64,000 bases of DNA from Candidatus Chlorohelix allophototropha (GTDB lineage: Bacteria > Chloroflexota > Chloroflexia > Chloroheliales > Chloroheliaceae). The position numbers and the translations under genes are program-made. The stretch covers positions 1,364,001-1,428,000 of the forward strand of contig NZ_CP128399.1 of the NCBI RefSeq assembly GCF_030389965.1. Direction: 5' to 3'. Of the stretch, positions 1,768 through 50,449 are shown one piece after another. Position 1 is the stretch's first letter; each line of letters starts with the position of its first letter. The notes under the pieces are model-generated. The model saw nothing but the letters and a program-made list of their open reading frames with translations. It was not told the origin of the DNA and did no database searches.

Positions 1768-1876
1768 GACGTTCCACACTCCGTTGTGAAGAAGGCAAGG
1801 TAACTAGGCGAAACCTATCTGTACGCCAGAGGTGGGCTGCGCTTGCGAATGAAAATCCGAAAAACTCCTTGCCAAT

Positions 1877-5920: not shown

Positions 5921-5932
5921 CTTGTTACTCCT

Positions 5933-6613: not shown

Positions 6614-6648
6614 ACAAGGATTGTATACATGTATACAATCCTTGTCAA
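6614..6648 (-). promoter_or_regulatory. Promoter embedded in a perfect 32-bp GntR operator
   Basis: Bases 6614-6645 are a perfect inverted repeat (16-bp arms, no spacer) centred on ATGTATACAT-like sequence. This fits the TTGTATACAA style of sites bound by FadR-type GntR dimers. On the minus strand a TTGACA box (6648-6643), exactly 17 bases, and a TACAAT box (6625-6620) form a near-consensus sigma-70 promoter inside the palindrome. The -10 box ends six bases before the ATG, so transcription should begin at or next to the start codon. Bound repressor would cover both promoter boxes. The geometry is directly visible; binding by the adjacent GntR protein is inferred. Confidence 0.85.
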
Positions 6649-6821
6649 GTAATTTGATACTTTTATAGTCTACTGATGGTCGCTGCCTACCTTATTCCAA
6701 AATTGCCATTTTAAAAGGAGGTTTTGCTTATATTTTCAAGCCAGCAGTATTCGCTGCTCCTTTAGGACGATATAGGGAAATCAAAATAGGACAGCGTATT
6801 TTCCTTCTGAGATGTCTTTGG

Positions 6822-7460: not shown

Positions 7461-7506
7461 AGAAATCCTCTTTCTCTTATTTTTATCTGGAACATCATAG
7501 CCAATA

Positions 7507-7590
7507 TTGAACAAACTGTTCATTTACTATATAATACTAATTAGCCAATAAATCAATAACCAATTTTGTAAGATTTGTTCAATACTGAAC
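7507..7590 (+). promoter_or_regulatory. Divergent promoter with two TetR-type operators
   Basis: A TTGAAC box (7507-7512), 17 bases and TATAAT (7530-7535) form a plus-strand promoter for the tetR gene. It overlaps a perfect inverted repeat TGAACA-N3-TGTTCA (7508-7522). A second repeat GTTCA-N4-TGAAC lies at 7577-7590. Both share TTTGTTCAATA, one in each orientation. This fits a TetR dimer repressing its own gene and the divergent methyltransferase. The repeats are seen; the binding is inferred. Confidence 0.75.
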
Positions 7591-7607
7591 GGGAGAGCTG
7601 AAATTGT

Positions 7608-8201
7608 ATGGAAACTAAGCCGACACAGACCGAAACAGCCCACAAATCAGCAGATCGGCGTATCCAAAGAACCCGCAACCTATTGCAAGAAGCCCTAATT
7701 TCGCTTATTCAGGAAAAAGATTACGATGATATAACAGTTCAGGATTTGCTTGATCGCGCAAATGTAGGACGCTCTACCTTCTATTCCCACTTTCTGGATA
7801 AGGATGAATTATTGATGAGCGGGCTTGAAAAGTTACGAGTTAGCTTTGAGGAGCAACACCAAAAACTGGGGCTGGAGTTGGGATTGAAAAACTCGGAAAG
7901 GCAAGTAAGCCTAGCTTTTTTCAAACACGCTCAAAGTCACTACCAAGTTTATAAGGCAGTAGTGGGAAAACGTAGTGGAACGATGATTACCAAAACTTTC
8001 TATGAGTACCTGAAGGAGATGTTCAGGGGATATTTAGCAAAAAATGAGTCACCCGGAGGAGTGCCATTAGAACTGGTAGTGCAATTTCAAGCGAGTTCGC
8101 TTATGGCATTATTAACGTGGTGGTTCGACAATGACCTACCCTATTCTGCTGAACAAATGAATAACTGGTATCATCAGTTGGCAGGGCAGTTTTTAGCATA
8201 G
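7608..8201 (+). CDS. TetR/AcrR-family transcriptional regulator
   Basis: The 197-residue protein has a TetR-type helix-turn-helix (about residues 20-65, with ITVQDLLDRANVGRSTFYSHF) and a helical ligand-binding C-terminal domain. The N-terminal RTRNLLQEALISLI start of the DNA-binding helix is typical of the subgroup found as regulators of methyltransferases and membrane proteins in Gram-positive and Chloroflexi genomes. It is divergent from the methyltransferase, and matching inverted repeats lie between the two, so local autoregulation is likely. The ligand is unknown. Confidence 0.9.
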   Translation: METKPTQTETAHKSADRRIQRTRNLLQEALISLIQEKDYDDITVQDLLDRANVGRSTFYSHFLDKDELLMSGLEKLRVSFEEQHQKLGLELGLKNSERQVSLAFFKHAQSHYQVYKAVVGKRSGTMITKTFYEYLKEMFRGYLAKNESPGGVPLELVVQFQASSLMALLTWWFDNDLPYSAEQMNNWYHQLAGQFLA

Positions 8202-8248
8202 GCTCAGGGTTTTCGCCTAAAACAGAAAGTAAAAAATCTGAAATAAAA

Positions 8249-8270
8249 ACAAGGGGCGTAAACCCCTTGT
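8249..8270 (-). terminator. Hairpin terminator between convergent genes
   Basis: A perfect 8-bp stem (ACAAGGGG / CCCCTTGT) with a 6-base loop lies between the convergent tetR and Rieske-fusion genes. On the minus strand it is followed by a T-rich tract (GTTTTTATTT), so it mainly ends the Rieske-fusion transcript. It could also act on the plus strand. Confidence 0.75.
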
Positions 8271-8309
8271 CTGAATAACCTCTTCAAGCGAAAGTCTCAA
8301 CTAGCGTAA

Positions 8310-9671
8310 CTATCCGTAGATAATGTTCCCGGCACTATCCACCTTGACCGTATATTTCTTCAGAGCGGTACGCGCTGGCATCGATGATGGGTTACCGTTC
8401 TGAGTATCGAAAGATACATCGTGGCGTGGGCAGTAAAGAGATTGGGTTGTCTCATTAAATACTAGGTTAACCGGTTCATGCGTACAAACCCCCCCGAAAC
8501 AACCCACCGAACCATCCTTACGATGCACTACAAAGGCTCTTTGGCTGGTATCAGGCGTAGTAAAGAGCAAAGCTTTGCCAGTTGCTAGGGTGGCTGTTGT
8601 CGCCAGAACGGTCACTCCAGAAGCTATGGCGGTGGTGGTGGCTGCCTTGGTAGTAGCGCTAGCCGCTGAAGTTGCTGCTGCACTCGTAGTAGTGACTGCT
8701 GCACTTGAAGTCGCCACTGAAGTTGTAGCTGCATTGGTAGAAGTTGCTATAGCAGTAGTGCCTGCCGCCGTGTTTTCAGCTACAGTCGCCGAAGCCGTTT
8801 TCCCCTGAGAAGTTCCCAACAGAGCTATTGCGCTACCAGCGGTAACTCCCGTTATAAAAGCCCCCGCCCCAATTTTCAAAAACTGGCGGCGTGCCATATT
8901 CGAGGCGGTGGTTGCCATTACAGGCTGAGTAGTCAGGCTGGTAAGCGGACTTACAGGGGCGTTAGTCATCTTGCGCTGACGATTACGCACTACAGTTATG
9001 GCAATACCGATTGATTGAGCTACCAATACTCCCAAAGTAGCGATAGCAGTACCTATACCGAACCAAGCTTCACGCACGTTGTAAAACTGGAAACCAATGG
9101 TGTGGATTAATCCAAAACCAAAGACCAGATAGGTCAGGCGTTGCAAACCCTTCCAACGCTTCCCCTTCATCAGTTTCAAGGAAATCTGGTTTGAAGTAAA
9201 CAACACAGGCAGTAATATTAGAAAAGCTATCATACCAAGGTCATTACTAACCCCGAAAACGTCGGTGCGTACCCCACCTGCTTGAGTCAAGAAATAAAGT
9301 AAAATTAGCCCTTTCTGGAAAAGCTGAAAACTAAAGAAAACGTGAATTAAGGTATTAATACCTGCCCAGATACCAATATCTCGGCGTAGGTCGATATTTA
9401 CAGGATTGCGGCGCTGGTGCAATAACTTGTAAGGACCGATTAGCAAGGTAATCGCCATTAACAAAAGCGCGTAGTAACCGGTACCGATTGATATAATTTC
9501 ACTGATGTCCGCGTCTGGTCGATATATTGCGGCAAGAATACAGGCGAGTATACTTGTAACCAGCATGACCACATGAGTTACCGGACGATTCTGACCGGAT
9601 TTTACTTTCTTATTTGCTGGTTTGATAGGTCGGACAGGCGCTTCCACCTTTTCTTCCATTATGACTGGCAT
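8310..9671 (-). CDS. Ferric-reductase-like membrane domain fused to a Tat-type segment and a Rieske [2Fe-2S] domain
   Basis: The 453-residue protein has three parts. Residues 30-230 hold about six membrane helices of the ferric reductase/MsrQ/YedZ type, with candidate haem histidines His110 and His190. Residues 258-290 hold an internal twin-arginine-like motif (ARRQFLKIGAG, Arg261-Arg262) followed by a hydrophobic helix, then an Ala/Thr/Ser-rich linker of about 70 residues. Residues 365-453 form a Rieske domain with the cluster ligands Cys396, His398, Cys414 and His417. The layout suggests electron transfer between membrane haem and an externally held iron-sulfur domain, as in cytochrome bc Rieske proteins inserted by Sec and then Tat. 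Partner enzymes are not adjacent. All parts are clear; the electron donor and acceptor are unknown. Confidence 0.85.
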   Translation of the reverse strand: MPVIMEEKVEAPVRPIKPANKKVKSGQNRPVTHVVMLVTSILACILAAIYRPDADISEIISIGTGYYALLLMAITLLIGPYKLLHQRRNPVNIDLRRDIGIWAGINTLIHVFFSFQLFQKGLILLYFLTQAGGVRTDVFGVSNDLGMIAFLILLPVLFTSNQISLKLMKGKRWKGLQRLTYLVFGFGLIHTIGFQFYNVREAWFGIGTAIATLGVLVAQSIGIAITVVRNRQRKMTNAPVSPLTSLTTQPVMATTASNMARRQFLKIGAGAFITGVTAGSAIALLGTSQGKTASATVAENTAAGTTAIATSTNAATTSVATSSAAVTTTSAAATSAASATTKAATTTAIASGVTVLATTATLATGKALLFTTPDTSQRAFVVHRKDGSVGCFGGVCTHEPVNLVFNETTQSLYCPRHDVSFDTQNGNPSSMPARTALKKYTVKVDSAGNIIYG

Positions 9672-10019
9672 AGTTTTGTTCCTTTTGTTTTAATAAAATA
9701 AGCGTTTTAGAATACTTTGTAATTTGCTTAACAATCTAACTGCTACCAATATAGCGACCTAAGCTTGTGAGTCCCTTATAAAAAACTGAGAGTTTACTTA
9801 AAGAAAATGGGCTTTTCAGACTGGAAAAACCCATTTCAAGTTGAATTTTGGTATATTTACGATAACTTTGAACCTGTTTCCAATAAGTTAGTAGGGGACC
9901 GGAACTGATTATGAGGTAATTTCTCAGCAAATTCTAAGCAAAGCAAATGATTGTCTTAAGCTTATGGATGTAAAATTAATAATAGATAAATACAGAAAAT
10001 CACAGTGTAGGTAAGCAAG
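9672..10019. promoter_or_regulatory. Divergent intergenic region with a long hairpin
   Basis: This 348-base region separates the Rieske fusion (minus) from the response regulator (plus). It contains an inverted repeat with arms 9805-9817 and 9824-9836 (13 bases, one mismatch, arms starting AAATGGG). It could be a leader hairpin of the Rieske gene or a binding site for the regulator. No convincing gene is present. Confidence 0.4.
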
Positions 10020-35017: not shown

Positions 35018-35061
35018 GGAGATAAATGCATGCCGTAGTTCTTCGATTCGAAGGAGTAAAA

Positions 35062-38000
35062 ATGAGACGAAGAAGAAATCCCAAAATCTTGTTGAGGCTC
35101 GCGCTGATAGCAGTGATGATAATTACTGCGATGCCTGCCCTGCCATTCGACAATATAGTTAGTGTTGCAGATGCTGCCAACACTAGAATCCTGAAATTAC
35201 AGGTAATCAGCGCGCGCGACGAGCCAAATTGGAAAAACGCCGCTGGTACTGTGGTGGGAGTCCATCAAGGCGATATCGTCCCCAACTATAAATTTATTAT
35301 TAACCAAGATACGTCCGGCAATCCGTTGCAGGCGCGTTATCCCAATTGTTCGCCATTTACCGACGCGACCAATACTACAATCAATACTAACTATCCGAAT
35401 AATTGTAATTGGCCCTCGATTCATCAAAACGACGCATATAATCCGATTGTAGCGCAAGGCACGCAAGCCAACTTGAACGCTACCACCGGGTTGAACTTGA
35501 CGGGTTTACCCAACGGAAATTACCTAATTTCGGTTTGGGCAGATGGCTACAAGATCGATGGCACAAATTTCAGTCTTCCTCTGACAGGCGCTTCAGGACC
35601 TACCCTTGGGCTAGTAACAGTAGCAGCACAACCCTACCCGCTACCTCTCGCCGCTATCAAACTCCAAACCTTTGAAGACTGCAACACTGTAAACGGGCAA
35701 TTCGACTCGCCGGGTGAGGAATCTACGCCGGGCGTGGTTACTTGCACTTCAGATCAATTCAAACTTGACCTGCCTAATTTCAAAGGGAAACTTTTTGATG
35801 TATTGGGCGAAGTAACTACCGATTGGTTCGGCAATCCGCTCTGTACAGTGTACGCCGCAGATGCAGCTAACACCATTCCGGCGCAAAATCCCACCAATGG
35901 TAATCTCCCTGTTTACCTTGACCCCACCAGCGGCAGACCTATCGTATTCAAGTTAGGCGCAGGTTGCCACCCCGATACCGATGGGGTAATCACTTTCAAC
36001 AACATGGGACCTAACCGCTATACTTCTCAGGTAGTGCCACCGGACGGCAGCAATTATATCCAGACTACGACTCTAGAAGGTAACCATGACTACGACGTAT
36101 GGACTCAGGAAGGCGCGACCGGTTTCGACACCGAAATGATCGGTCCCGGCGGCGAGCCTGTGCCTCCCACGCCTTTTGGTTATGTTTCTCCTACCAACAA
36201 TCCTACGCTAGTTAAGGCCCCTACCACCGGAACCGCCGCAGACCTCGGTTCTATTAAAGGCTGGATACGCGGCTCCAAAACCTACATCCCGCAGCAAGGC
36301 GGCTTGCCTTATAACGGTCAAAACGGTGGCGTAGGTGCCAGCGGTACCAAAATTGACCCTAAACCGATAACCGACGCAGTAATAGCCTTATCTGCTTTGC
36401 AGGGGGGCGACCGCCCGGTTTATATTGGAATGGCAAACACCGATGGTACATTCCAGATTAACAATGTGCCAAACGGCGACTACTCGCTGACTTATTGGGA
36501 TAAATCCCAAGAGTTCTTGCTGGACACCTTGAACGTCACCGTTGCTAACGGACAAGTCGCCGATACGGGAACTTTGTTGTTAGCGGGTTGGTGGACTACC
36601 TTCGAGGGAAGAGTCTGCATTGACCAGAACGGCAATGGCAAATGCGAAGCAAACGAACCGGGCATCCCCAACGCTCCTGTACAATTACTCTCTCGCGCTA
36701 ATAATACGTTGGAACGCGGTATTTCCGCTGTATCCACCGATAACAACGGCAACTATATTTTCCGCGAAGCCTACCCGATGACCTTCTGGTTAGTCGAGCA
36801 GGTTTATATGGATCGTTTCAAGACGGTAGGTGTCACCTATCAGGCCGATAATGACCCGAATGAGCATACCATTCTGGGAGTTGGTCCGGACGTGAGCGTT
36901 TTCCCGGTTATCGGCTTGAGTGGTCGTATGGACTGGGCATTACAGCCGTATAACCTCGCTACTCTGGAAAACGGCGGTATTGTGGGTACGGTTACTTACG
37001 ATAGCACCCGCAACGAGCTAAACGCACGCGAGGCTGTTACCGAAATCTACCAACCCGGTATTCCCAACATCCCTGTGCGACTCTATGCCACTACTTCCTG
37101 CACACCTAATCCCGCGCTTACCAGCGACCCTACTTGTACCTCTCCTAATGGTGACGGTAAGTTTTACCTGACCAATGCCACTACCGGCGCATTAGTTAAG
37201 GGACATCAACTCAACGAGTATATTTCGGAACAATGGCAACGCCCAACAGATTGTACGCCGCTGGATGTCAACGGCGCTCCGGTGGTTCAATTGGTAACCC
37301 CACGCACTACCGGTAAAGATTGCCTAGAAGCGCCTTTCATGGGCACTCAATTCCAGACCGGGTTCTCCACAGTGGACGGCAACTATGGCTTTAGCACCGT
37401 TTGGCGTTACAACAGTAACGGTAACCCGGTTATGTTAAACGGCAAACATGTCGAAGACCCGATGCCAATTGGAGATTACATCGTGGATGTAAATATACCC
37501 AATGACAAATTTAACAAACCCCAGTACGAAGTTACCAAAGAAGAAGATGTCAATATCTTCACCGGCGATGCCTATACCCCCCAGGTACTGAATCCACCTT
37601 GCGTAGGACCTTTGCATGTGGTTGACGTAAAAGGAATCCTACCAGATGGTGCGAACGCAGTAGATAATCCGGCTTTTGCAGCGGGTGGCGGTAGCCCCTT
37701 CGAAGGCAAGAATATGCCGCTTTGCGATGCAAGGTTATTTCAGGTGAAACCCGGTAAAGCCGCTTCTGGTAACTTTAACCTGTTCACCCAAGTGCCTATA
37801 CCGGGCAAGCTATGGGGGTTGATTAATGATGACTTGAACCTTTCGACCAATCCTCAAGACATCATGTTTGGTGAAAAACGTGGGTTGGCGAACGTACCGG
37901 TCGGCATCTACGACTACAGCAACCGCCTGATCACCACCGTAATGTCGGACCCGAACGGCTTCTACGAAGTCATTCTACCTTCGACCAGCACCTATAACTG

Positions 38001-40344
38001 TCCGCTTCCGGCAGGTCCCTGCCCGAACGTTTACCGTCTGGTAGGCAATGACCCCGGTCAACCCGGTAACCTGAACCCATACTACAACCCGCAATACCGC
38101 ACCATTTCGGCTTCCTTTGAAGTGTGGCCCGGTCTGGTAATTCCTGCCGACCACGCGCCGATAGCAATTGGTTCGATGATTGCAACTCCCGGTTCGCAGA
38201 ATAACCAACCTGCTCAATGCAAGTTGGATACCACTACACCACAGATATTGGCGGTTGAGAAACCTTACATTCGCTTGACCGATACGGCAGCTAGCAAACG
38301 TATTACCATTAACGGTACTGGCTTTGGCACTACTGCCGGACAGGTATTGCTTGACGGTGTTGCTGTACCGATTGTTGCCGGATCGTGGCAGGATGGGCGC
38401 GTTGTCATGAACCTTGCCAATTACAACACTCCGGGCACACATCAGCTAGTGATTAAAGATAGCAACGGGCAGTCAACCGTTACTAACCTAACCTTCCACG
38501 TACTCGGTACAGTTGGTCCTAACAGCTACACTCCTACGTTATACGAAGTTGGATATGGAACGCAGTACGGCAAGTACAACTTAAATAATTACACCTTCCC
38601 TTATACCAACACTGCTGGTAAAGGACCAATCCAAACCGCCTTGGATGACGCTGCCACCAAAACACAAGCCTTGGTAGTGGTGTATCCGGGAACGGGGAAA
38701 ATTCCTACCAACCGGAACGGCAATAGCTTGTTCAATGCCAACGGCGCTTACTTTGAGAACCTCGTGATCCATTCCAATGTTAAGTTGCAGGGTGTGGGAC
38801 CCGGCGGTTTCCGCAACCCCAACAGCATTTTGAATACAACGGTCAACGGTACGGTAATTGACGGTCTCGCTTTCGGCGACGAAACCTATGGCGACACCTG
38901 GCGCACCAATTATTCGGGGTTGGCAGGTGCAACACCGCTAGGTGAAGGCTCAGTTATTACCGTAATCGGCAATAACAGCTTTAACAGTACAACTTGGAAA
39001 GCCTCTATTGATGGTCTCCTTATCACCGGTGGCGATCAGATGGGACAGAATAGTAAAGCTAATTCAGTACCCGGTGGTGTAGTAGTGACGCAGGGCGGCG
39101 GTATCTTCGCCTACAACAACGCCAATAATCTGCAAATTACCAATAACATAATTCGCAGCAACGGCGGCGCATACGGCGGCGGTCTCCGGGTAGGTACACC
39201 TTTTGCTAATAGCAGCAACGCCAACCTGAAGGTTTCCTACAACCGGATTATCTCCAGCGGTGGTACTAATCTAGCGGGTGGTATCGGTCTCTTTAACGGT
39301 TCCAACGGCTACGAAATTGACCACAACGATGTTTGCGGCAACTATTCGGGAGAATACGGCGGTGGTATCAGTCAGTATGGCTACAGCCCTAACGGCAAGA
39401 TTCACGACAACCGTATCTACTTCAACACCTCCTTCGACGAAGGTGGCGGCATATTCCTTGCCGGAGAATTACCGGCTAATCCGCTAGCTTTGTCGGCTGG
39501 CACAGGTCCGGTTGATGTTTACAACAACCTGATCCAAGCTAACTTGGCGAATGATGATGGTGGTGGTATCCGCTTGTTGATGGTGGAAAACTTCCCGATC
39601 AACCTCTACAACAACATGATTGTGAACAACGTCTCAACCCATGAGGGTGGCGGTATCGCAATGGATGATGCGCCAAACACTCGTATCTATAACAACACTA
39701 TCATGAAAAACCTAACCACCGCAACGGCTGCTACCAGCAACGGACAACCGGCACCCGCAGGTATCTCTACTACCGGTAACAGTTCCATATTGCAGGCAAC
39801 TTTGCCAATCGGTTCACCCACTTTCAGCAACCCGCTGTTGTTCAACAACATCCTGTGGGACAACCGGGCAGGTCAGTGGAACCACACTACCCTGCAATTG
39901 CAAGGCATCGGTCTCACTGGCGACACTAGCCCAATCAACTACTGGGATATGGGAGTAGCGGACGGTTCTGGACAGTTGTCACCTACCAATTCAATATTGC
40001 AACCGACAACTAATCCGGGTGTAATCGCTAGCCCTACCAACATTTTGTCTGACCCGTTGGTAGTGGACAGCACTTACAACGTGAGCGTGGCGGTCTTCCC
40101 GTGGCGCACCAACCCCACTTTTACCGGTGCAACTGTTGTAGCGCTAGATTTGCCAGTTAACCTGATGGGCAACTATCACCTATCGGCTACTTCTCCGGCG
40201 CTCAATCTGGGTGCCGCAAGCAAAGTAATTCCTTCTTACCAAGTGGTGAATGGGGTTACTAACCTGGCTGCGCCAGCCTTCGATATTGATAACCAAGCAC
40301 GCCCATTAAACGGCGGGTTCGACGCAGGTGCAGACGAACGCTAG
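35062..40344 (+). CDS. Giant secreted protein with SdrD-like, IPT/TIG and parallel beta-helix domains
   Basis: I place the start at ATG 35062, with AAGGAG five bases upstream (1760 residues). It has a basic N-terminus (MRRRRNPK) and a signal peptide ending near ADAAN. Then come repeated collagen-binding-B / carboxypeptidase-regulatory-like modules (patterns such as ISVWADGY, DENGNGKCEANEPGIPNAPVQL, VSTDNNGNYIFREAYP), an IPT/TIG-like domain (ITINGTGFGTTAGQVLLDGV), and a right-handed beta-helix rich in GGG-I and YNN/NN-x-I repeats. It ends in LNGGFDAGADER. No sortase motif or membrane anchor is seen. It heads the gene run that encodes the cupredoxin proteins, so it is probably a cell-surface scaffold for them. 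Enzymatic activity is not evident. Confidence 0.82.
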   Translation: MRRRRNPKILLRLALIAVMIITAMPALPFDNIVSVADAANTRILKLQVISARDEPNWKNAAGTVVGVHQGDIVPNYKFIINQDTSGNPLQARYPNCSPFTDATNTTINTNYPNNCNWPSIHQNDAYNPIVAQGTQANLNATTGLNLTGLPNGNYLISVWADGYKIDGTNFSLPLTGASGPTLGLVTVAAQPYPLPLAAIKLQTFEDCNTVNGQFDSPGEESTPGVVTCTSDQFKLDLPNFKGKLFDVLGEVTTDWFGNPLCTVYAADAANTIPAQNPTNGNLPVYLDPTSGRPIVFKLGAGCHPDTDGVITFNNMGPNRYTSQVVPPDGSNYIQTTTLEGNHDYDVWTQEGATGFDTEMIGPGGEPVPPTPFGYVSPTNNPTLVKAPTTGTAADLGSIKGWIRGSKTYIPQQGGLPYNGQNGGVGASGTKIDPKPITDAVIALSALQGGDRPVYIGMANTDGTFQINNVPNGDYSLTYWDKSQEFLLDTLNVTVANGQVADTGTLLLAGWWTTFEGRVCIDQNGNGKCEANEPGIPNAPVQLLSRANNTLERGISAVSTDNNGNYIFREAYPMTFWLVEQVYMDRFKTVGVTYQADNDPNEHTILGVGPDVSVFPVIGLSGRMDWALQPYNLATLENGGIVGTVTYDSTRNELNAREAVTEIYQPGIPNIPVRLYATTSCTPNPALTSDPTCTSPNGDGKFYLTNATTGALVKGHQLNEYISEQWQRPTDCTPLDVNGAPVVQLVTPRTTGKDCLEAPFMGTQFQTGFSTVDGNYGFSTVWRYNSNGNPVMLNGKHVEDPMPIGDYIVDVNIPNDKFNKPQYEVTKEEDVNIFTGDAYTPQVLNPPCVGPLHVVDVKGILPDGANAVDNPAFAAGGGSPFEGKNMPLCDARLFQVKPGKAASGNFNLFTQVPIPGKLWGLINDDLNLSTNPQDIMFGEKRGLANVPVGIYDYSNRLITTVMSDPNGFYEVILPSTSTYNCPLPAGPCPNVYRLVGNDPGQPGNLNPYYNPQYRTISASFEVWPGLVIPADHAPIAIGSMIATPGSQNNQPAQCKLDTTTPQILAVEKPYIRLTDTAASKRITINGTGFGTTAGQVLLDGVAVPIVAGSWQDGRVVMNLANYNTPGTHQLVIKDSNGQSTVTNLTFHVLGTVGPNSYTPTLYEVGYGTQYGKYNLNNYTFPYTNTAGKGPIQTALDDAATKTQALVVVYPGTGKIPTNRNGNSLFNANGAYFENLVIHSNVKLQGVGPGGFRNPNSILNTTVNGTVIDGLAFGDETYGDTWRTNYSGLAGATPLGEGSVITVIGNNSFNSTTWKASIDGLLITGGDQMGQNSKANSVPGGVVVTQGGGIFAYNNANNLQITNNIIRSNGGAYGGGLRVGTPFANSSNANLKVSYNRIISSGGTNLAGGIGLFNGSNGYEIDHNDVCGNYSGEYGGGISQYGYSPNGKIHDNRIYFNTSFDEGGGIFLAGELPANPLALSAGTGPVDVYNNLIQANLANDDGGGIRLLMVENFPINLYNNMIVNNVSTHEGGGIAMDDAPNTRIYNNTIMKNLTTATAATSNGQPAPAGISTTGNSSILQATLPIGSPTFSNPLLFNNILWDNRAGQWNHTTLQLQGIGLTGDTSPINYWDMGVADGSGQLSPTNSILQPTTNPGVIASPTNILSDPLVVDSTYNVSVAVFPWRTNPTFTGATVVALDLPVNLMGNYHLSATSPALNLGAASKVIPSYQVVNGVTNLAAPAFDIDNQARPLNGGFDAGADER

Positions 40345-40428: not shown

Positions 40429-41895
40429 ATGAAAAATTACAAGCCTCTACGCAATGTCTCCCGGCGCCGGTTCCTGGCTCTGGGTGGTGGCGCGATGGCA
40501 GCAGCAGCGGGCTTAAGCGCATTGCCCGTCAATAGAGTTTTAGCCTATAACGATTTACTTGCACCCAATCAGGCAACCTTGCCTTTAACCTTCGATATGG
40601 TGGCAACCGATGGTTGGATTGCCCTGCCCGGCTCGCTTAACCCTATTCCGGGCGTAACAACCTCATACTATCCCGACCCTTACGCCGCCGCGAACGGCAA
40701 CCAGCAAGGGCAAACCACCTATATCTTCGGTTTTCGGCAAGTTCCGACAGGTACTGACCCGCTAAGCCTTAAAGGACAGGCGCAAGCCAGCGCCCCTTTA
40801 CTCTATGTGAATGAGAATACCGATGTAACCATCCGTTTGACCAATGCCGGATTACAGCAACGCCCTGACTTAGTTGACTCGCATACGATACATTGGCATG
40901 GCTTCCGCAACGCCATTCCCCTGTTCGATGGTGTACCGGAAATGTCGATTTCTGTACCGATCGGGCAAAATTTCACCTATTACTATAAACCCATCAATCC
41001 GGGTACATATATGTACCATTGCCATTTTGAAGACGTAGAACACGTGCATATGGGCATGACCGGTGTAATTTTCGTTCGCGCTCTCCAAAACACTGGGATG
41101 ATGCGATCAAATCCGGCAGACCCGATCAACAGCACCCTAGTCCCGGCTGTAGATTCCACCAATACGCCTATTCCGTTAGCGCGTCTTGCGGGGGGTCCTG
41201 CTAGTTCACCACTCGGTTATGTCTACAACGATGGGCTTCAGCCGACCGACCCTAACTCATCCGCTTACGACCGTGAGTTTACGATTTTCCTTTCAGAGGT
41301 ATGGGCAAAAGCACACTATAACGACGCTCATATCCAACCAACCGATTGGAGCGAGTACGCTCCCGATTTCTGGCTGATGAACGGGCGTTGCTATCCCGAT
41401 ACGCTCGCACCTAGTAGCAATCCACTCGTAGCTCCTAGCGACCCAAGACTCCAGTTCCAACCGATTTCGTCACTGGTTACGGCGAATGAAGGGGAAAAAG
41501 TGCTGCTACGCGCGGTTTCACTGGGTTACCAGCAATCTTCATTGAATATAACCGGAATAGATTTGCGATTAGTGGGCAAAGATGCGGTATTCCTCCGATC
41601 AAATACCGATGAAGCCCTTCGTACCGGCATCCCGCGTATCAACCCGGTTAATACCGAGTTCAGCACCAACACTATTTATATCGGACCCGGTGAATCAGTT
41701 GATGCAATATTTATCGCGCCTACTTTCAGTGGTGGAACAGGAACTAGTGGGTTGGGCTATGACACCTACCTGTTCTACAACCGAAATTTTGCCAACTCAA
41801 CCAGCGGCAGTTCATCGAGTTACGGTGGGCAAATGACCGAAATTCGAATCTACCCGGCGGGTACTTTACAGTCTCAGACTGCCCCTAACTATTAG
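40429..41895 (+). CDS. Tat-exported multicopper-oxidase-like protein A: all copper ligands in domain 1, none in domain 2
   Basis: The 488-residue protein has a twin-arginine signal (SRRRFLALGGG, residues 11-21) and two cupredoxin domains. Domain 1 has His152-x2-His155-W-His157-G and Tyr-His197-Cys198-His199, followed by His205/His207 and Met210. That gives a full type-1 copper set (His152, Cys198, His205 or His207, Met210) and four trinuclear-site histidines (155, 157, 197, 199). In domain 2 the segment where HPxHxHG is expected reads NITGIDLRLVG, and the C-terminal HCH region reads LFYNRNFA, so no ligands remain. Two-domain oxidases need both sets. The next gene supplies the missing ones. 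AAGGAG lies ten bases before the ATG. Confidence 0.88.
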   Translation: MKNYKPLRNVSRRRFLALGGGAMAAAAGLSALPVNRVLAYNDLLAPNQATLPLTFDMVATDGWIALPGSLNPIPGVTTSYYPDPYAAANGNQQGQTTYIFGFRQVPTGTDPLSLKGQAQASAPLLYVNENTDVTIRLTNAGLQQRPDLVDSHTIHWHGFRNAIPLFDGVPEMSISVPIGQNFTYYYKPINPGTYMYHCHFEDVEHVHMGMTGVIFVRALQNTGMMRSNPADPINSTLVPAVDSTNTPIPLARLAGGPASSPLGYVYNDGLQPTDPNSSAYDREFTIFLSEVWAKAHYNDAHIQPTDWSEYAPDFWLMNGRCYPDTLAPSSNPLVAPSDPRLQFQPISSLVTANEGEKVLLRAVSLGYQQSSLNITGIDLRLVGKDAVFLRSNTDEALRTGIPRINPVNTEFSTNTIYIGPGESVDAIFIAPTFSGGTGTSGLGYDTYLFYNRNFANSTSGSSSSYGGQMTEIRIYPAGTLQSQTAPNY

Positions 41896-41959
41896 TATTT
41901 CAGGTTTCCGGTCTCGGCTTTCAAAGCCGCAATTTGAAACTGATTAAGGAGATTAAACG

Positions 41960-43330
41960 ATGCGTCTAGCGCAGAACAAGATAAATCTTAAAAGGGTGAG
42001 CCTGGGGCTAGTGCTGTTGATGGTTGCGATGCTGGTAGCGACCGTGCCAACCGGTAGCGCAGAAGTCAAGGCTGCCACCACACCACCCAAAACCGGGTTG
42101 ATATGTACCACCGGTACATCACCTAACCCTACCTTTAGTCTCACCGCTCAATCCGGTTATATTACTTTACCGGATGGCAACATTTCGTTTATGTGGAGTT
42201 ACGCCCCCACCGGAGGTACTTTCCAGTTGCCCGGTCCGTTCCTGTGCGTCAATGAGGGCGATCTGGTAACAATTGTACTAAATAACAAGTTGCCGGAAGA
42301 TACCTCAATCGTTATTCCGGGTATGGAAGGGGTAATGGCAAACGGCGTGGCTGCCCAACCCCAGTTCGATACAACCAACACGCTGACTTCGCTGACCAAC
42401 GTAGCGAAAGCTAACGGCGGTAGCATCACTTATACCTTCACTGCCGGCATGCCGGGTACTTACCTGTATGAGAGCGGTACTGACGAAGGCAAACAGGTCA
42501 ATATGGGCTTGTTCGGCGCTTTGATAGTACGACCGAAAGCCACGGGTTTACCTGTTATCCCCGGAACCGCCTACGCCTACAACCGGGCTGACAGCATTTA
42601 CAACGCAGGTAACGAGTATGTGATGATTACTTCCGAGCTTGACCCTGCTCTGCACCAAGCGGTGGAAAACGGGCAGGCTTACGACATTACCCAAAACCAC
42701 CCGCGCTACTGGATGATCAACGGGCGCAGCTTCCCGGATACGATTGCCGATAATGGGGCGGCTTGGCTTACCACTCAGCCTTACGGGGCGATGGTACACA
42801 TGCAACCGTATGACCCTAGCGCCACTTCCGCTTACCATTATCCGGCGATGGTGCACTATTTAAACGTGGGTATGCTAAATCACCCCTTCCACCCCCACGG
42901 CAATCACGGTCGTGTAATCGGACGTGATGCCCGCCCGTTGGCTTCGCCAGCTGGGGACGACCTATCCTATGAAAAGTTTTTGATCTTGCTGGGTTCGGGT
43001 CAAACTTGGGACGTGCTGTACCAATGGTCGGATGAGTACCACTGGAATGCTGCTACCAATCCGATTCCGGTAACTGTACCACAGTTGCAGAACCTGACTT
43101 TCAAAGGTGGCATTACATGGTATAGCGGTAGCCCCTATCTAGGTGTTCAGGATGGTCTGCCAACTGGCACAACTTCTTACAACCAGTGCGGTGAGTACTA
43201 TCAGGTCTGGCACAGCCATGCTTTGAACGAAGCAGCAAACTATGACCTAGGCTTTGGCGGTATGTTCACCCTTCAGCGAATTGACCCACCGATGGCGCAA
43301 CAGGTGAGTAACAATCGCCTGTGCAATTAG
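41960..43330 (+). CDS. Multicopper-oxidase-like protein B: trinuclear-site ligands in domain 2, none in domain 1
   Basis: The 456-residue protein has a Sec signal peptide (about 1-38) and two cupredoxin domains. In domain 1 the positions of protein A's HWHG and HCH read IVIPGM and LYESGT, so no copper can bind. In domain 2 the HPxHxHG motif is intact (His308, His311, His313), and His418-Ser419-His420 replaces the usual His-Cys-His. The type-1 Cys is lost and the later type-1 His position reads Glu424, but the four trinuclear histidines (311, 313, 418, 420) remain. This is the exact complement of protein A. It is separated from gene A by 64 bases and overlaps or abuts gene C. Confidence 0.87.
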   Translation: MRLAQNKINLKRVSLGLVLLMVAMLVATVPTGSAEVKAATTPPKTGLICTTGTSPNPTFSLTAQSGYITLPDGNISFMWSYAPTGGTFQLPGPFLCVNEGDLVTIVLNNKLPEDTSIVIPGMEGVMANGVAAQPQFDTTNTLTSLTNVAKANGGSITYTFTAGMPGTYLYESGTDEGKQVNMGLFGALIVRPKATGLPVIPGTAYAYNRADSIYNAGNEYVMITSELDPALHQAVENGQAYDITQNHPRYWMINGRSFPDTIADNGAAWLTTQPYGAMVHMQPYDPSATSAYHYPAMVHYLNVGMLNHPFHPHGNHGRVIGRDARPLASPAGDDLSYEKFLILLGSGQTWDVLYQWSDEYHWNAATNPIPVTVPQLQNLTFKGGITWYSGSPYLGVQDGLPTGTTSYNQCGEYYQVWHSHALNEAANYDLGFGGMFTLQRIDPPMAQQVSNNRLCN

Positions 43331-43347
43331 GAAGGATTTTGAAGAAG

Positions 43348-45804
43348 ATGCAAATAAATTTCAAGCAAATTCTGAGGGCGGGTATGTCGCTGTTGCTGGG
43401 AATCGCGGCTTTGTCAGGGGCATTCGCTCTGACAGCCTTTAACCAAGCAAGCGCGGCTCCCGGAGAGGCAAATTTCGGGGTGATACGTAACCCACTGCCT
43501 CTGGCGGCAACATTGCCACCTGCAAGTTGTACCTTGACCGGTACGGTACGTGCCTGCGACCTGTGGGCTACAACCGGAACAATTAATGTACCCGGATTAG
43601 CTACACCGATTAACATCTGGGGGTATTCAACTACTCAGACAAGCGCAGCTACCTTACCGGGTCCCACTATTATTGCTAATCAGGGTGAAACGCTCCAGAT
43701 TACCTTGCACAACACCCTGCCCTACATTACCAGCCTCTCTTTACCGATGATGTTGGGCGCGCCCGACCTGAACGGTATCGGAGCGGGTAATGTTACGCCA
43801 ACCAGCAAAACCTATACCTTTAACAACCTGAAACCCGGCACCAGTCTGTATGAAGCCGGATTGGCTAAAGGTGCAAACGGTAATGTACAGGTAGCGATGG
43901 GTATGTTTGGCGGTTTAATTGTGCGCCCTACCGGGCAACCGCTTCAGGCTTATGACGCAAACAGCACGTTTACCGATGAAGCCTTGCTGGTTTTCAGCGA
44001 TATTGACCCGGCGTTGAACGCAGCCCCTACCACCTTCGACCTACACACCTACGCGCCCAAGTACTGGTTGATTAACGGGCAGGCTTACCCGAACACTGCG
44101 ACTATTAGCAGCGCAGCGGGCAACAATGTTTTGTTGCGTTACCTAAACGCGGGTCTGCGCGACCATGCTATCGGCACTATGGGTCTCCATAGTTGGGTCT
44201 ATGGGGTGGACGGTAAAGCCCTGAAATACCCCTATCAGGTGGTAGTAGAAACCATTGCCTCTGGTCAGAGCATGGATTTGATTACTACCATTCCGGCAAC
44301 TGCTCCGGCAGGCAGCAATTTCGCCCTGTATAACGCGGCTAACCACCTCGACAATAGTGGGGCGCGTACCAGCACAACAGTAGCAACCAGCCCAATCAAG
44401 TATGGTGGCATGCTTACCTTTATCAATGTGAGCGGTACTCCAAGTGGCGGTACTAGCGGTCCGGTGGTCAGCAACGCTACCGTTAATCCGAGTACGGCTA
44501 ACGGTTCGGTTAATGTCGTGCTAAGCGCCAGCATCGCGCCTGCCTTTGCCAGCGCCGAATACTTCATTGACACGATTGGCACTAACGGAGCGGGTATTGC
44601 TATGAACACTACCGGCTGCCCTACCGGAGCCAATGCTTGCGCTACTATTACTACCGCTACACTGGCAACCCTTTCTAACGGTAATCACACTTTCTATATC
44701 CACGCCTTAGGAACAGGCACTACCGGAGTATATGGCGGGTTTGGTTCGGCAACCCTGAACTTGTCGAAAACCGGTCCGGTTGTAAGCGGTACTGTGTTGC
44801 CTACTCCTGCCAACGGTAGCGTTGACGTAAACATTAATGTTCACGCCGATAGCACCAGCACCAGCAACCTGAATGTAACAGCAGGTGAATACTTCCTTGA
44901 TCCGGTCGGCACACCTGCTACAACTACTCGCGGTACAGCGCTTACCCTTGGTCCTGCCGGAGCAGCGCCGATCACAACCTTGACCGGTGCAATTCCTGCG
45001 GCTACTGTTACTGCTTTGAGCAACGGGACACATACCGTAGCAGTACGCGCTCAGGATGCGAACGGTTCATGGGGCAACTTCGCCAATATCACGGTGACGG
45101 TGGATAAGATTGGTCCGACAACCAGCGCAGTGACAGCCTTGCCCTCACCAAACAACGGTACGGTAATGTTCGACCCTAACACTCCGTTCAAGGTAACTGC
45201 AACGGTTTCAGATACCGCTGGTGGTAATTCAAACATCGTAGCAGCAGAAGCCTATGTGGACAATACCACCAATCCGGCGGCTTCAATCCCGATGCTTCCC
45301 GTCACCGGGTTCAACTTCGGTAGTTCTGCAAGCGTGAATGTGTACATCACTATCGCGCTTAACGACATCAAGCAACTGGGTCAAGGGCAACACACGCTTT
45401 TTGTGCGGGGGCAGGATGCTGCCGGTAACTGGAGCGCGTTTGCTTCGAAAACCTTTATTGTTGATGTGACTTCGCCTACTGTTACTGGATTAACTGCTAC
45501 AGCAGTCACGAATAGAAGAATCAGACTGAACTTTACAGCCACCGACCCGGTCAATACAGCCAAGGCACCAGCAACTGTTTCAGCGCCTGCTTCCAATATC
45601 GTGGCAGCAGAATACTTTGAAGGCACCGACCCCGGCGCAGGCAAAGGTACTGCAATCACCCTGCCAGCAGCAGGAACAACCTCTAAAACCGTAAGCTTTA
45701 CTACAACTCAACAGTTCAGCCGTGGCACGCATACTCTGTATATCAGAGTTAAGGACGCAGCGGGTAACTGGAGCGTAGTGTACTCAGTAAGGGTTACCGT
45801 TTAA
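43348..45804 (+). CDS. Protein C: copper-free cupredoxin-fold region fused to bacterial Ig-like repeats
   Basis: The ATG at 43348 is the likeliest start (818 residues); GTG 43321 would overlap gene B and has no clear ribosome site. After a signal peptide (ending near ASAAPGEA) two cupredoxin-like domains align with proteins A and B (PGPTIIANQGETLQITLHN, GTSLYEAG, YLNAGLRDHAIGT). The ligand motifs are gone in both: the HPxHxHG region reads DHAIGTMGLH and the HxH region reads LYNAANHLDN. From about residue 370 there are four Ig-like repeats of about 100 residues, each with a GEYF/AEYF motif and an SNGTHT-type strand. It is probably a structural partner or surface anchor of the A/B oxidase. No cell-wall anchor motif is seen. 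Confidence 0.82.
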   Translation: MQINFKQILRAGMSLLLGIAALSGAFALTAFNQASAAPGEANFGVIRNPLPLAATLPPASCTLTGTVRACDLWATTGTINVPGLATPINIWGYSTTQTSAATLPGPTIIANQGETLQITLHNTLPYITSLSLPMMLGAPDLNGIGAGNVTPTSKTYTFNNLKPGTSLYEAGLAKGANGNVQVAMGMFGGLIVRPTGQPLQAYDANSTFTDEALLVFSDIDPALNAAPTTFDLHTYAPKYWLINGQAYPNTATISSAAGNNVLLRYLNAGLRDHAIGTMGLHSWVYGVDGKALKYPYQVVVETIASGQSMDLITTIPATAPAGSNFALYNAANHLDNSGARTSTTVATSPIKYGGMLTFINVSGTPSGGTSGPVVSNATVNPSTANGSVNVVLSASIAPAFASAEYFIDTIGTNGAGIAMNTTGCPTGANACATITTATLATLSNGNHTFYIHALGTGTTGVYGGFGSATLNLSKTGPVVSGTVLPTPANGSVDVNINVHADSTSTSNLNVTAGEYFLDPVGTPATTTRGTALTLGPAGAAPITTLTGAIPAATVTALSNGTHTVAVRAQDANGSWGNFANITVTVDKIGPTTSAVTALPSPNNGTVMFDPNTPFKVTATVSDTAGGNSNIVAAEAYVDNTTNPAASIPMLPVTGFNFGSSASVNVYITIALNDIKQLGQGQHTLFVRGQDAAGNWSAFASKTFIVDVTSPTVTGLTATAVTNRRIRLNFTATDPVNTAKAPATVSAPASNIVAAEYFEGTDPGAGKGTAITLPAAGTTSKTVSFTTTQQFSRGTHTLYIRVKDAAGNWSVVYSVRVTV

Positions 45805-45907: not shown

Positions 45908-46014
45908 TCCATTAAGCCAAATCAGGCAACTTGGAAGGTAAGATTTGGCATTTGGAACTCATAACAATGTAGTGAATAAAATAGAATTTGGAACTTGAAA
46001 GGGATTTTACAGAA

Positions 46015-46512
46015 ATGGAAAAAGTAACCGGAAATAGCATCAAAAGCCGTCCAAATTTCGCGCTTTTTACTCGAATCGGCGCAGTGGCGCTGTTGGTTTT
46101 TATAGTTGCGGGTGCGCTATTTGTCATAATGAACCAGCAAAGCCCCAAACCAACACAAACAAACGTGCCACCTATGCCAACTAACCCCCAAATTGAAGAG
46201 AAGTGGGGCATACGAGTCACTCAGATTGGCGTAACAGCGGATGGGGGTATGGTAGATTTCCGCTTTATGGTGATAGACCCTGAAAAAGCTTTGAATATGA
46301 TGTCCGTACCGGATAACTTGCCTATTTTGGCGGCGGAAGATTCTGGGATATATGTAAACTCGGCTGCAATAATGTCCACTCGCCACGATTTAAATGCCGG
46401 TGGAATCTATTTTATGCTGTTCCGCAATACGCAAGGGGCAATCAAACCCGGCGGTAAGGTAGTAGTGCTATTCCCTGACGAACAAAAGCTTGAACATGTG
46501 GTTGCTCGCTAG
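46015..46512 (+). CDS. Single-pass membrane-anchored protein, function unknown
   Basis: The start at ATG 46015 has AAAGGGA upstream (165 residues); a TTG at 45988 is less likely. A short cytoplasmic N-terminus precedes one membrane helix (about 22-42) and an external domain of about 120 residues with a repeated strand pattern (GIRVTQIGVTADGGMVDFRF, GGIYFMLFRN, GGKVVVLF). It lies in the copper gene run between protein C and the CopC-CopD fusion and may be an accessory or assembly factor. I recognise no family. It has no Cys, and the two Met-rich segments are short. Confidence 0.6.
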   Translation: MEKVTGNSIKSRPNFALFTRIGAVALLVFIVAGALFVIMNQQSPKPTQTNVPPMPTNPQIEEKWGIRVTQIGVTADGGMVDFRFMVIDPEKALNMMSVPDNLPILAAEDSGIYVNSAAIMSTRHDLNAGGIYFMLFRNTQGAIKPGGKVVVLFPDEQKLEHVVAR

Positions 46513-46550: not shown

Positions 46551-48515
46551 ATGTCAAAGCAGCAAATTAGAGCAATATCAGCATTACTGGCTTTTAGTTT
46601 CGCATTGTTTTTCGGCAATATGGCGAGTGCATCGGCGCACGCGATTTTAATTCGTACTGACCCGCAGGATGGGGCAAATCTAGCAGAGACACCAAAGCAA
46701 GCGCACTTGTGGTTTAACGACCTAATCATTATGGATTTTACGAGCGTCGAATTGGTGAATGATGAGGGGCAGCATCTTCCGGCAAAAGCGTTGCGACTCA
46801 ATACCGAAATGACCGCCGCTGCCGTCAAAGAATACGACAACCCGAAAATTATGGTACTGGAGGTGGATTTACCTGAATTAACCCCCCACGCTTATCGTCT
46901 GGACTGGAAATCGCGCAGCGCGGACGACCTACATACCATAACCGGCACAGTTATTTTCGGAGTGCAACACTCGATAGCGCCGGAAACCCGAAAAGTTACT
47001 GAAACTACGCCACCTCCGCTAGAAGTTTTTATGCGTTGGCTCAGCTTTGGCGGGATTTCGGGGCTTGCCGGGGCGTTTACCTTAAGCCTGACCATCCTAC
47101 CCAAAGCTCGAAAAAAATTAGAGCAAGAGGGAGAGTTCGCAATTCCAGTACGCGCCAGATTAATGAAATTGGCAGGTTGGTCGGGATTGTTAGCCTTTGT
47201 AGCCGGATTAGGGCTTTTATTGGTGCAAGGCTTTGCCGGAGAAGGCGGAGTGGACGGTTGGTGGGTGATAATTTCGCGTACCGCCTATGGGTTGCGCTGG
47301 CTAATCAGTCAAAGTTTGTTACTAATACTGGCGGTTTTATTCCTGAAAGCAGTGAAGCCTGAGAAATTCAGCCAGTCTGTTGTCCGGGTAGCAGTAATAG
47401 CCTTGACATTGGCTTTGCTGGTAGTTGAAGCTTTGAACGGACACGCCCCTGCTGAAGGGGTTTCGGGGCTGAGCCTGAGCATAGATGTAATTCATCTATT
47501 GTCCAGTGGAATGTGGGTAGGCGGATTGTTCGCGTTGGTAGTAGCGGTAGTGCCGCTCCTACACAAGAATCAGGCGGGAAGAGCCACCGCAATTGCGATG
47601 CTAAAACGGTTCAGCGGAGTTGCCGCCGTAAGTCTAATTGCGGTAATTGCCAGTGGGCTTTACAAAAGCGGTAAGCAGGTTGCCTCTATCGATGCGCTGC
47701 TGGTTACTTTGTACGGGCAGGCGTTGATGCTAAAAGTATATTTGGTGCTTTTTATGGCGCTGCTAGGGCTGGTAAATACTGCCGTGCTACACCCGCGAGT
47801 GGGAGCTTTTCTGGGCAAACTTTTGCGAAAACCGCAAGACTGGAAACCCACTTCTTCACGCTTATTGCGCCGAACTATTCTAGTAGAAGCGGGAGTTGCC
47901 ACACTGGTGTTACTGCTGGCAGCATTGATCGGAACTTCGCAACCGGCGCGCGGTCCTGAGTTCGAGCCACTCTTTACAGGTGAGGCATCGAGTAGCCTAA
48001 CCGCAAACGCCAACGATCTAATATTCAATCTATCCATTAAACCTAATCGTCCGGGGCAGAATTTTATCTCTATAGGGATTTTCAATTCGCGCCGTCCCGC
48101 CCCTGCCCCAATAGAATCGGTAGCTGTAAAGCTGGATTCACCGGGACAACAAGGCAGTGGTATTACCGTAAATGCGGAATCTTTAGGCAACGGACGTTAT
48201 CAAATTGCGGGCGGCTATCTAAATAAAGCCGGGATTTGGAATTTAGCGTTGGTGGTTAACCGTCCCGGTATGGAAGAGACAAAATTGAGCGTACCATGGA
48301 CGGTTGCCGCCGGAGAAGATGCCAGCGAGAAGCGTCCTGTAATTGTATCAAACCAATCTATTGGGAGTTTACTGGACTGGGCAGCCGCGTTGGTAGCGTT
48401 GCTAGCGTTCACCGGGCTAGGCGGTTGGCGGCTCAGTAAGAAATTATCTTGGAATTTTAATAGTTTTCTGTTATTCAAAACTTTGAGACAAACCCGCTCA
48501 GAGCGAAGGGAGTAA
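46551..48515 (+). CDS. CopC-CopD fusion copper-transport protein
   Basis: The 654-residue protein has a signal peptide, an N-terminal CopC domain starting with the copper-binding HAILIRTDPQDG and ending with the D-x-H of SADDLHTITG, then about eight membrane helices of the CopD type (residues 155-480), and a C-terminal extracytoplasmic FixH/YtkA-like domain (about 490-610) plus a last helix. CopC binds copper outside the membrane and CopD imports it. Its place in the run suggests that it supplies copper for oxidase A/B or handles copper released by it. GAGGA lies before the ATG. Confidence 0.92.
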   Translation: MSKQQIRAISALLAFSFALFFGNMASASAHAILIRTDPQDGANLAETPKQAHLWFNDLIIMDFTSVELVNDEGQHLPAKALRLNTEMTAAAVKEYDNPKIMVLEVDLPELTPHAYRLDWKSRSADDLHTITGTVIFGVQHSIAPETRKVTETTPPPLEVFMRWLSFGGISGLAGAFTLSLTILPKARKKLEQEGEFAIPVRARLMKLAGWSGLLAFVAGLGLLLVQGFAGEGGVDGWWVIISRTAYGLRWLISQSLLLILAVLFLKAVKPEKFSQSVVRVAVIALTLALLVVEALNGHAPAEGVSGLSLSIDVIHLLSSGMWVGGLFALVVAVVPLLHKNQAGRATAIAMLKRFSGVAAVSLIAVIASGLYKSGKQVASIDALLVTLYGQALMLKVYLVLFMALLGLVNTAVLHPRVGAFLGKLLRKPQDWKPTSSRLLRRTILVEAGVATLVLLLAALIGTSQPARGPEFEPLFTGEASSSLTANANDLIFNLSIKPNRPGQNFISIGIFNSRRPAPAPIESVAVKLDSPGQQGSGITVNAESLGNGRYQIAGGYLNKAGIWNLALVVNRPGMEETKLSVPWTVAAGEDASEKRPVIVSNQSIGSLLDWAAALVALLAFTGLGGWRLSKKLSWNFNSFLLFKTLRQTRSERRE

Positions 48516-48517
48516 AT

Positions 48518-50449
48518 ATGAGAAAAGTAAAAACTACTTTGGTTAGAGGAGTCCTATGCTTCTGGCTGGTTTTCGGGCTTGCCTTGAGCCTTTTCGGGTC
48601 ATTAGCTTTCACCAGCAACAACGTGGCTGAGGCAGCTTTCAAGCCTGTTTACGTAGAAGATAGTATTCTAGTAGGCTATCGTGCCGGGGTTAATGATACC
48701 GAAAAAGATAATATTGAACATAACGAAGGGGGCGTTCGCGATAAAGTAGTGGGCGCTAAACAAACCCACGTTGTAAAAGTTCCTAAAGGTCAAGTAGCAA
48801 ATAAAATTGCGAGCTTCAAAAAATATGGGGCAGTTGCCTATGCCGAACCAAATTATATAATTACCGCCGCGGACGTACCTAACGACTCCTATTACAACCA
48901 ACTCTGGGCGATGAAGAACACCGGGCAAGCGGTGAGCGGGATTAGCGGCACCGCCGGAGTGGACATCCAAGCCGAGGCAGCTTGGGCTGTTACAAAAGGC
49001 AGCCAATCCATTGTAGTAGGTATTGTAGATACAGGCATCGACTACACTCACCCGGATTTGGCAACTAACGTTTGGAGTAATCCCGGTGGAGTGGGTGGGT
49101 GTGCAGTGGGCACACACGGCTTTAATGCCCTCACCAACACCTGCGACCCAATGGATGATAATGACCATGGCTCGCACGTATCGGGAACTATCGGTGCGAC
49201 TGGAAACAACGCAACAGGAGTGACCGGAATCAACTGGAATGTCAGCTTGATGGGCTTGAAATTCCTGAATTCTACTGGTTCAGGCAACACCGCCGGGGCA
49301 ATTGCTGCGATTGATTTCGCAGTGAAAGCCAAGCAAGCGGGTGTAAATATCCGGGTTCTGAACAATTCGTGGGGCGGTGGTGGCTTCAGCCAAGCATTGC
49401 TAGACGAAATTAATCTCGCTAATTCCAATGATATTTTATTCGTAGCGGCGGCTGGTAACTCTTCTCTCAATCTTGACTCAACCCCAAGTTACCCCGCTAG
49501 CTATAACGCGCCCAACATCGTGGCAGTAGCTGCCACCACCCAAACCGATGGACTGGCAGGCTTTTCCAATTACGGCGCTACGTCAGTACATCTGGGCGCA
49601 CCCGGCGTGAATATTCTTTCTACCACCCGCTATAGCAGTTATTCCTACTTCGACGGTACTTCGATGGCTACGCCACATGTGGCAGGGGCTGCTGCGCTGG
49701 TACTTTCTACCGGCTCTTTTACAACGGCGCAGCTTAAAGACAAATTGCTGAGCAACGTGGATACCGACCCCGCATTGGTAGGTAAAACTGTTACAGGCGG
49801 TCGTTTGAACTTGTGTAAAGCGGTAAACGGTAGCTGTGGAGTGGTAGTAGCGCCTGACTTCACGCTGAGCGCGTCTCCTGCTTCCCAAACCATTAGCGCT
49901 GGTTCATCCGCCAATTACAATGTGACACCTACCGCAATTAACGGTTTCAGCAGCGCAATTAGTTATTCCGTGAGTGGACTTCCGAACGGGGTTACTGCAA
50001 CATTCTCACCTAATCCGTCGACAGGTACAACTACCCTAACCGTTTCAACCGCCAGCAGCGTTGCTGCCGGAACTTCTACCTTGACTATCAGTGGTACAAG
50101 CGGAAGTTTGTCGCACACTGCTAATGTGAGCTTGACTATAAGCATACCAAAAGCAGATTTTAGTCTGAGCGCGTCGCCTGCTTCTCAAACTGTCAAGCGT
50201 GGTTCGACTGTTGCCTATACCGTGACACCTACCGCAATTAACGGTTTCAGTAGCACAATTAGTTATTCCGTGAGTGGGCTTCCGAGCGGAGTTACTGCAA
50301 CATTCTCGCCCAATCCGACGACTGGCGTTAGTACCCTTAGCGTAAAAACCACTAGCAACACCCGAACCGGCACTTACACCCTGACCATTAAAGGTATTAG
50401 CAGCAGTCTATCACATACCACTACCGTAACATTAACAGTTACTCGGTAA
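48518..50449 (+). CDS. Secreted subtilase (S8 family) with two C-terminal tandem repeats
   Basis: The start lies two bases after the CopCD stop. The 643-residue protein has a signal peptide, an I9-like propeptide (about 45-115) and a catalytic domain with Asp171 (VDTGID), His217 (DHGSHV), Asn314 (AAGNS) and Ser382 (GTSMATPH). The triad is complete. The C-terminal 200 residues are two copies of a 100-residue all-beta module (DFTLSASPASQT...). It probably processes the exported proteins of this run or digests external protein. A strong terminator follows, which makes it the last gene of the run. Confidence 0.93.
   Translation: MRKVKTTLVRGVLCFWLVFGLALSLFGSLAFTSNNVAEAAFKPVYVEDSILVGYRAGVNDTEKDNIEHNEGGVRDKVVGAKQTHVVKVPKGQVANKIASFKKYGAVAYAEPNYIITAADVPNDSYYNQLWAMKNTGQAVSGISGTAGVDIQAEAAWAVTKGSQSIVVGIVDTGIDYTHPDLATNVWSNPGGVGGCAVGTHGFNALTNTCDPMDDNDHGSHVSGTIGATGNNATGVTGINWNVSLMGLKFLNSTGSGNTAGAIAAIDFAVKAKQAGVNIRVLNNSWGGGGFSQALLDEINLANSNDILFVAAAGNSSLNLDSTPSYPASYNAPNIVAVAATTQTDGLAGFSNYGATSVHLGAPGVNILSTTRYSSYSYFDGTSMATPHVAGAAALVLSTGSFTTAQLKDKLLSNVDTDPALVGKTVTGGRLNLCKAVNGSCGVVVAPDFTLSASPASQTISAGSSANYNVTPTAINGFSSAISYSVSGLPNGVTATFSPNPSTGTTTLTVSTASSVAAGTSTLTISGTSGSLSHTANVSLTISIPKADFSLSASPASQTVKRGSTVAYTVTPTAINGFSSTISYSVSGLPSGVTATFSPNPTTGVSTLSVKTTSNTRTGTYTLTIKGISSSLSHTTTVTLTVTR
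49856..50446 (+). repeat. In-gene 300-bp tandem duplication
   Basis: Two consecutive 300-bp units start at 49856 and 50156. They share long identical stretches (for example around 49928-49977 and 50228-50277) and encode the same 100-residue module. The near identity at the DNA level points to a recent duplication. Confidence 0.85.

Follow-up and report, generated by a model that had tools for sequence, protein, structure and literature searches.

A likely split multicopper oxidase of Chloroflexota in which adjacent gene products hold complementary halves of the trinuclear copper site

The adjacent chains A, B, and C encoded in the window (the whole stretch of 64,000 nucleotides that was analysed, on contig 1 of the Chloroflexota genome G000) are probably the subunits of one extracytoplasmic multicopper oxidase. 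Its single trinuclear copper centre would lie between domain 1 of A and domain 2 of B, and the three chains would probably form a 1:1:1 ring. We also lean towards the wider reading that this heterotrimeric oxidase, with a trinuclear centre from two genes and a dead third subunit, is widespread in Chloroflexota, that complementary degeneration has had three or more origins within this phylum, and that unfused stages between the homotrimer and ceruloplasmin are preserved there. Multicopper oxidases are textbook enzymes with the active site within one gene product, and the route from homotrimers to ceruloplasmin has long been proposed. If the wider reading is true, a trinuclear centre obligately split over two genes together with a degenerate third subunit would give the family a new principle of quaternary structure. 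The clusters would also exemplify in nature the intermediate proposed to lie between the homotrimeric two-domain oxidase and the six-domain ceruloplasmin, A-B-C would be the unfused counterpart of that human blood protein, and the evolutionary model would be testable by reconstitution.

The window was analysed using open reading frame (ORF) prediction, Pfam and NCBIfam models, and sequence comparison with the PDB. The ORFs of A, B, and C were confirmed, and all three match Pfam multicopper-oxidase models above the cut-off. The gene order, all on the forward strand, is giant protein, A, B, C, 174-aa protein, CopC-CopD, and S8 peptidase. Chain A (40429..41895, 488 aa) is a Tat-exported two-domain multicopper-oxidase chain that matches Cu-oxidase_3 and Cu-oxidase_2. 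Chain B (41960..43330, 456 aa) is a secreted two-domain chain. The assignments of both chains rest on the ORF, Pfam, and ligand conservation. Chain C (43321..45804, 827 aa) consists of two ligand-free cupredoxin domains (approximately residues 58-385) and an Ig-like extension, as identified from the ORF, Pfam, and a PDB match. The longest frame of C starts at GTG 43321, before B has ended. Just past the B stop codon, at 43348, lies an ATG in the frame of C, and this ATG may as likely be the true start of C. The twin-arginine signal of A is near-invariant (R12/R13, 41 A sequences) and the signals of B and C look on inspection like those of Sec export, so a centre shared between A and B would form outside the cytoplasm.

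The giant secreted protein (35026..40344, 1772 aa) consists of CarboxypepD_reg, SdrD_B, and beta-helix-like repeats as identified from Pfam and synteny. It lies directly upstream of A in every locus whose contig continues, has approximately 32-58% identity between the window and the other loci, and is possibly a surface scaffold. The 174-aa protein (45988..46512) is a membrane-anchored accessory protein without a Pfam or NCBIfam match that is conserved in most A-B-C clusters, at times within a longer frame. A role as a copper chaperone was weighed and discarded because the protein has no conserved His or Met. The CopC-CopD fusion (46551..48515; Pfam and NCBIfam) is a copper-handling membrane protein that is often found at the locus, which hints at a copper supply. 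The subtilisin-family (S8) peptidase (48518..50449; Pfam) often closes the cluster.

The roles of the copper ligands were assigned by aligning A and B with L051-L053, type-C two-domain oxidases that are complete in one chain, supplemented by conservation. Domain 1 of A exhibits the motifs H152-T-I-H155-W-H157 (40882..40899, forward strand; T1, T2/T3, and T3 ligands) and H197-C198-H199...H205...M208-G-M210 (41017..41058, forward strand; T3, T1, T3, T1, and axial ligands). The type-1 site is formed by H152, C198, H205, and M210/M208, and the domain 1 half of the trinuclear centre consists of H155, H157, H197, and H199. Domain 2 of B exhibits the motifs H308-P-F-H311-P-H313 (42881..42898, forward strand) and H418-S419-H420 (43211..43219, forward strand), the latter with S, N, D, or V in place of the type-1 Cys. 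The domain 2 half of the trinuclear centre consists of H311, H313, H418, and H420. An insertion in B displaces the H418/H420 column in the alignment with L051-L053, and these two residues were taken from other comparisons. Several alignments where MAFFT put C wrongly on B were left out.

Domain 2 of A is ligand-free and the domain 1 ligands of B are replaced, as the earlier note had claimed and as the alignment with two-domain oxidases confirmed. The A residues it listed (H152, H155, H157, H197, C198, H199, H205, H207, and M210) are all where it placed them. H205 is a near-invariant ligand, whereas H207 is not conserved, position 207 being H in 27, Q in 12, and S in two of the 41 sequences. 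The B residues (H308, H311, H313, H418, S419, and H420) were also placed correctly, but H308 does not hold as a trinuclear ligand, being a former type-1 position that varies. The eight trinuclear histidines and the type-1 site that characterise a multicopper oxidase are thus present in A and B jointly and in neither alone, and annotation by the ligand motifs of single genes would label both chains defective.

The search covered 400 genomes of the phylum, 158 genomes of the window's class, 396 genomes of the class of G059, one GTDB contig, and an order-level search. All searches combined gave 40 A-B loci in 36 Chloroflexota genomes. A and B are same-strand neighbours at every one of the 40 loci (the window and 39 others), and the order giant protein, A, B, C is constant wherever the contig continues. 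The near-invariant His, Cys, and Met residues of A (n = 41) are H152, H155, H157, H197, C198, H199, H205, and M210, and no others; M210 is present in 40 of the 41 sequences and M208 in 37. The near-invariant His residues of B (n = 40) are H311, H313, H418, and H420, and no others. C96 and C410 of B are also near-invariant and perhaps form a disulfide. Position 308 of B is Y in 16, H in 13, F in five, V in two, I in two, T in one, and L in one of the 40 loci, and position 419 drifts among N, S, D, V, I, and T. The drifting type-1 positions beside the fixed trinuclear positions act as an internal control, which indicates that selection holds exactly the half that is missing from A. The trinuclear ligands of A domain 1 and B domain 2 are all intact in 39 of the 40 loci, across many families. 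The loci share about half of their residues, so a ligand pattern conserved over them is far beyond chance.

The single exception is the complete cluster L122 in genome G715 (reverse strand; A 3009-4259, B 1650-3002, and C 586-1767), which is ligand-degenerate. Its A reads LQRHCRYMM at the nine ligand positions, its B acquired H313D, and both frames are open. The A ligands are invariant at every other locus. Among the 40 loci, no other A and no other B is degenerate; the two losses coincide, as expected if both chains serve one site. The L122 cluster is a candidate pseudo-enzyme that may be comparable to coagulation factor V. The loss of its site, together with the ligand-free C found everywhere, would suit a relict cluster in which the three paralogues are decaying, have no oxidase function, and are retained as structural surface proteins, and in some genomes the role may be non-catalytic. 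As a general account this is highly improbable, given that 39 of 40 loci hold every trinuclear ligand while nearby copper positions drift, and that CopC-CopD-like copper genes often lie alongside.

A was found in 29 of the 396 genomes from the class of G059, and the set of B-positive genomes is identical except for G522, although operon co-occurrence is not independent evidence genome by genome. The G522 match (L124) is a single chain with both halves (HCH...H...MGM and HIH...HNH), and its first motif is lost at the contig end. A without B and B without A, which had been named in advance as evidence against a shared site, were looked for in these 396 genomes and neither was found. No two-domain oxidase other than A, B, and C was detected in the window genome, so no alternative partner is detectable there for either A or B. 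The co-divergence of A and B (Spearman, 0.85) is not specific, since the giant upstream protein diverges equally in step with A (0.85).

These findings also bear on the possibility that A and B are independent proteins, where A would be a type-1 electron-transfer or metal-binding homotrimer, B would be a type-2/3-like copper protein, and the complementarity would reflect chance decay after duplication. Each chain is plausible as a stand-alone two-domain fold, and contact between the chains is not evident from sequence alone. This explanation is nevertheless very unlikely. The trinuclear histidines of both chains are invariant while the type-1 positions of B drift, the co-occurrence is strict, the loss at L122 is joint, and the same complementarity has been re-invented independently, once inside a single chain, as described below.

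A hetero-oligomer of A and B that holds the eight trinuclear histidines, as first proposed from the window, is supported by complementary, jointly conserved, and adjacent halves that decay together, but its suggested A3B3 form is not. Two-domain laccases are homotrimer rings in which the trinuclear site sits where domain 1 of a chain meets domain 2 of its neighbour (PMC6854816, PMC6650940), and the A3B3 proposal had left out C, which lies directly after B in 38 of the 40 loci; the other two (L114 and L117) end at contig ends. Strict alternation of A and B cannot close a three-chain ring, which points to C as the third chain and gives one live and two dead interfaces. A 1:1:1 ring of A, B, and C, deduced from the ligand pattern and gene order, therefore fits the evidence better than A3B3. 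C is ligand-free in both domains wherever it was examined. It is only approximately 400 aa in L112, L120, and L122, and elsewhere it acquired variable Ig-like or repeat extensions.

Those extensions suggest anchoring, and C might instead lie outside a ring of A and B only (A2B, AB2, or A3B3/A2B2), for example to anchor the complex at the surface or to present substrate, with the trinuclear centre still shared between A and B. A split pair in Ktedonobacteria that apparently has no third chain also agrees with this arrangement. We regard it as unlikely. The conserved core of C, to which the chain is nearly reduced in its three short forms, again consists of two cupredoxin domains and is sister to B, two alternating chains do not close a three-chain ring, and A2B or AB2 would leave half-sites unpaired.

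The preferred A-B-C ring is consistent with the phylogeny. A, B, and C each form one clade in the tree (support of 100/99 or better), and B and C are sisters. B and C share the domain 1 replacements E/Q-S/A-G...Q for H-C-H...H, and these shared replacements suggest that domain 1 died in the common ancestor of B and C and that C lost domain 2 later. Complementary ligand loss is also found in adjacent type-C two-domain oxidase genes of Ktedonobacteria, at L054 (G325, 5759-8041, reverse strand) and L056 (G332, 7405-9720, reverse strand). One gene of this pair has the domain 1 site and lost the domain 2 HxH, and its neighbour has the domain 2 ligands only. The B-like gene comes first and the A-like gene second, and both loci nest among oxidases of their own family that are complete in a single chain. 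No third chain was detected near L054 or L056, so a third chain is not needed by every split oxidase. The fused chain L057 (G189, 572-2866, reverse strand, 764 aa) has live domains 1 and 4, dead domains 2 and 3, and a C-terminal plastocyanin-like cupredoxin, and its halves are each other's nearest relatives in the tree. On the sequence and tree evidence, complementary ligand loss is independent at least twice more, in the Ktedonobacteria pair and in the L057 chain. Two other candidates in G332, L177 (1101-2667, reverse strand) and L178 (677-1835, forward strand), were rejected as further splits because they look like broken single genes. L177 is a three-domain and L178 a type-B multicopper oxidase, each in two frames, probably through frameshifts or sequence errors. 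The scans of viral contigs gave no matches.

The three chains probably descend from a type-C two-domain oxidase that carried its type-1 copper in domain 1, through duplication of the gene and a stepwise loss of ligands. Homology, the conserved ligand pattern, co-occurrence, joint loss, and the tree are observations, and the complex itself, with its stoichiometry, copper load, activity, and substrate, is an inference. A, B, and C would assemble 1:1:1 into a six-domain ring as in homotrimeric two-domain oxidases or ceruloplasmin. The trinuclear copper centre would arise solely at the contact between A domain 1 and B domain 2, and the B1-C2 and C1-A2 interfaces would be purely structural. Electrons from a substrate would pass to the type-1 copper of A and through the H-C-H bridge to the trinuclear centre, where O2 would be reduced to water. 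The AlphaFold model of an A-B-C read-through (L012, one frame, three alignment rows) has a mean pLDDT of 29.9. The B model from six paralogous rows is of low confidence (pLDDT 45.8), and its match to the PDB two-domain oxidases 3gdc, 7rab, and 3g5w (Z of approximately 15-16) is supportive only.

Searches of open-access papers for a multicopper oxidase that is split, heteromeric, or heterotrimeric gave none. Among the known systems, the best PDB sequence matches of A are the type-C two-domain oxidases 3g5w (Nitrosomonas europaea) and 2zwn (a metagenomic two-domain laccase). The chains resemble the type-C oxidases in having two cupredoxin domains per chain, the type-1 copper in domain 1, and trinuclear ligands divided between chains. 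The type-1 ligands of A are confined to domain 1, and a type-1 site is absent from B and C. However, one gene encodes both trinuclear halves of the type-C homomeric trimer, whereas here A domain 2, B domain 1, and both domains of C are ligand-free, and two gene products and a ligand-free third chain take the place of one. The small laccase SLAC (type-B) shares the two-domain fold and the trinuclear centre at the subunit interface, but it is a homotrimer with the type-1 copper in domain 2, and type-B chains form a separate clade in the tree. The copper nitrite reductase NirK shares the two-domain fold, the type-1 copper in domain 1, and a catalytic site at the chain interface. NirK has a single type-2 copper there, and this identity was rejected on the grounds that A and B together retain and conserve all eight trinuclear histidines; the match to TIGR02376 is also far under the cut-off. 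In the six-domain proteins, the type-1 sites are in the even domains and the trinuclear site is between domains 1 and 6 (or 2 and 3); the fused proteins hold at most one trinuclear site and have factor V as a non-catalytic relative (PMC3600357). A-B-C, as proposed here, would resemble ceruloplasmin and hephaestin in having six cupredoxin domains and keeping one of three possible trinuclear sites, and the ligand pattern is compatible with this provided that A, B, and C form one ring. In contrast to the fused single chain of the ceruloplasmin type, each of A, B, and C has its own ORF, both in the window and in all examined loci, and the site would lie between A1 and B2.
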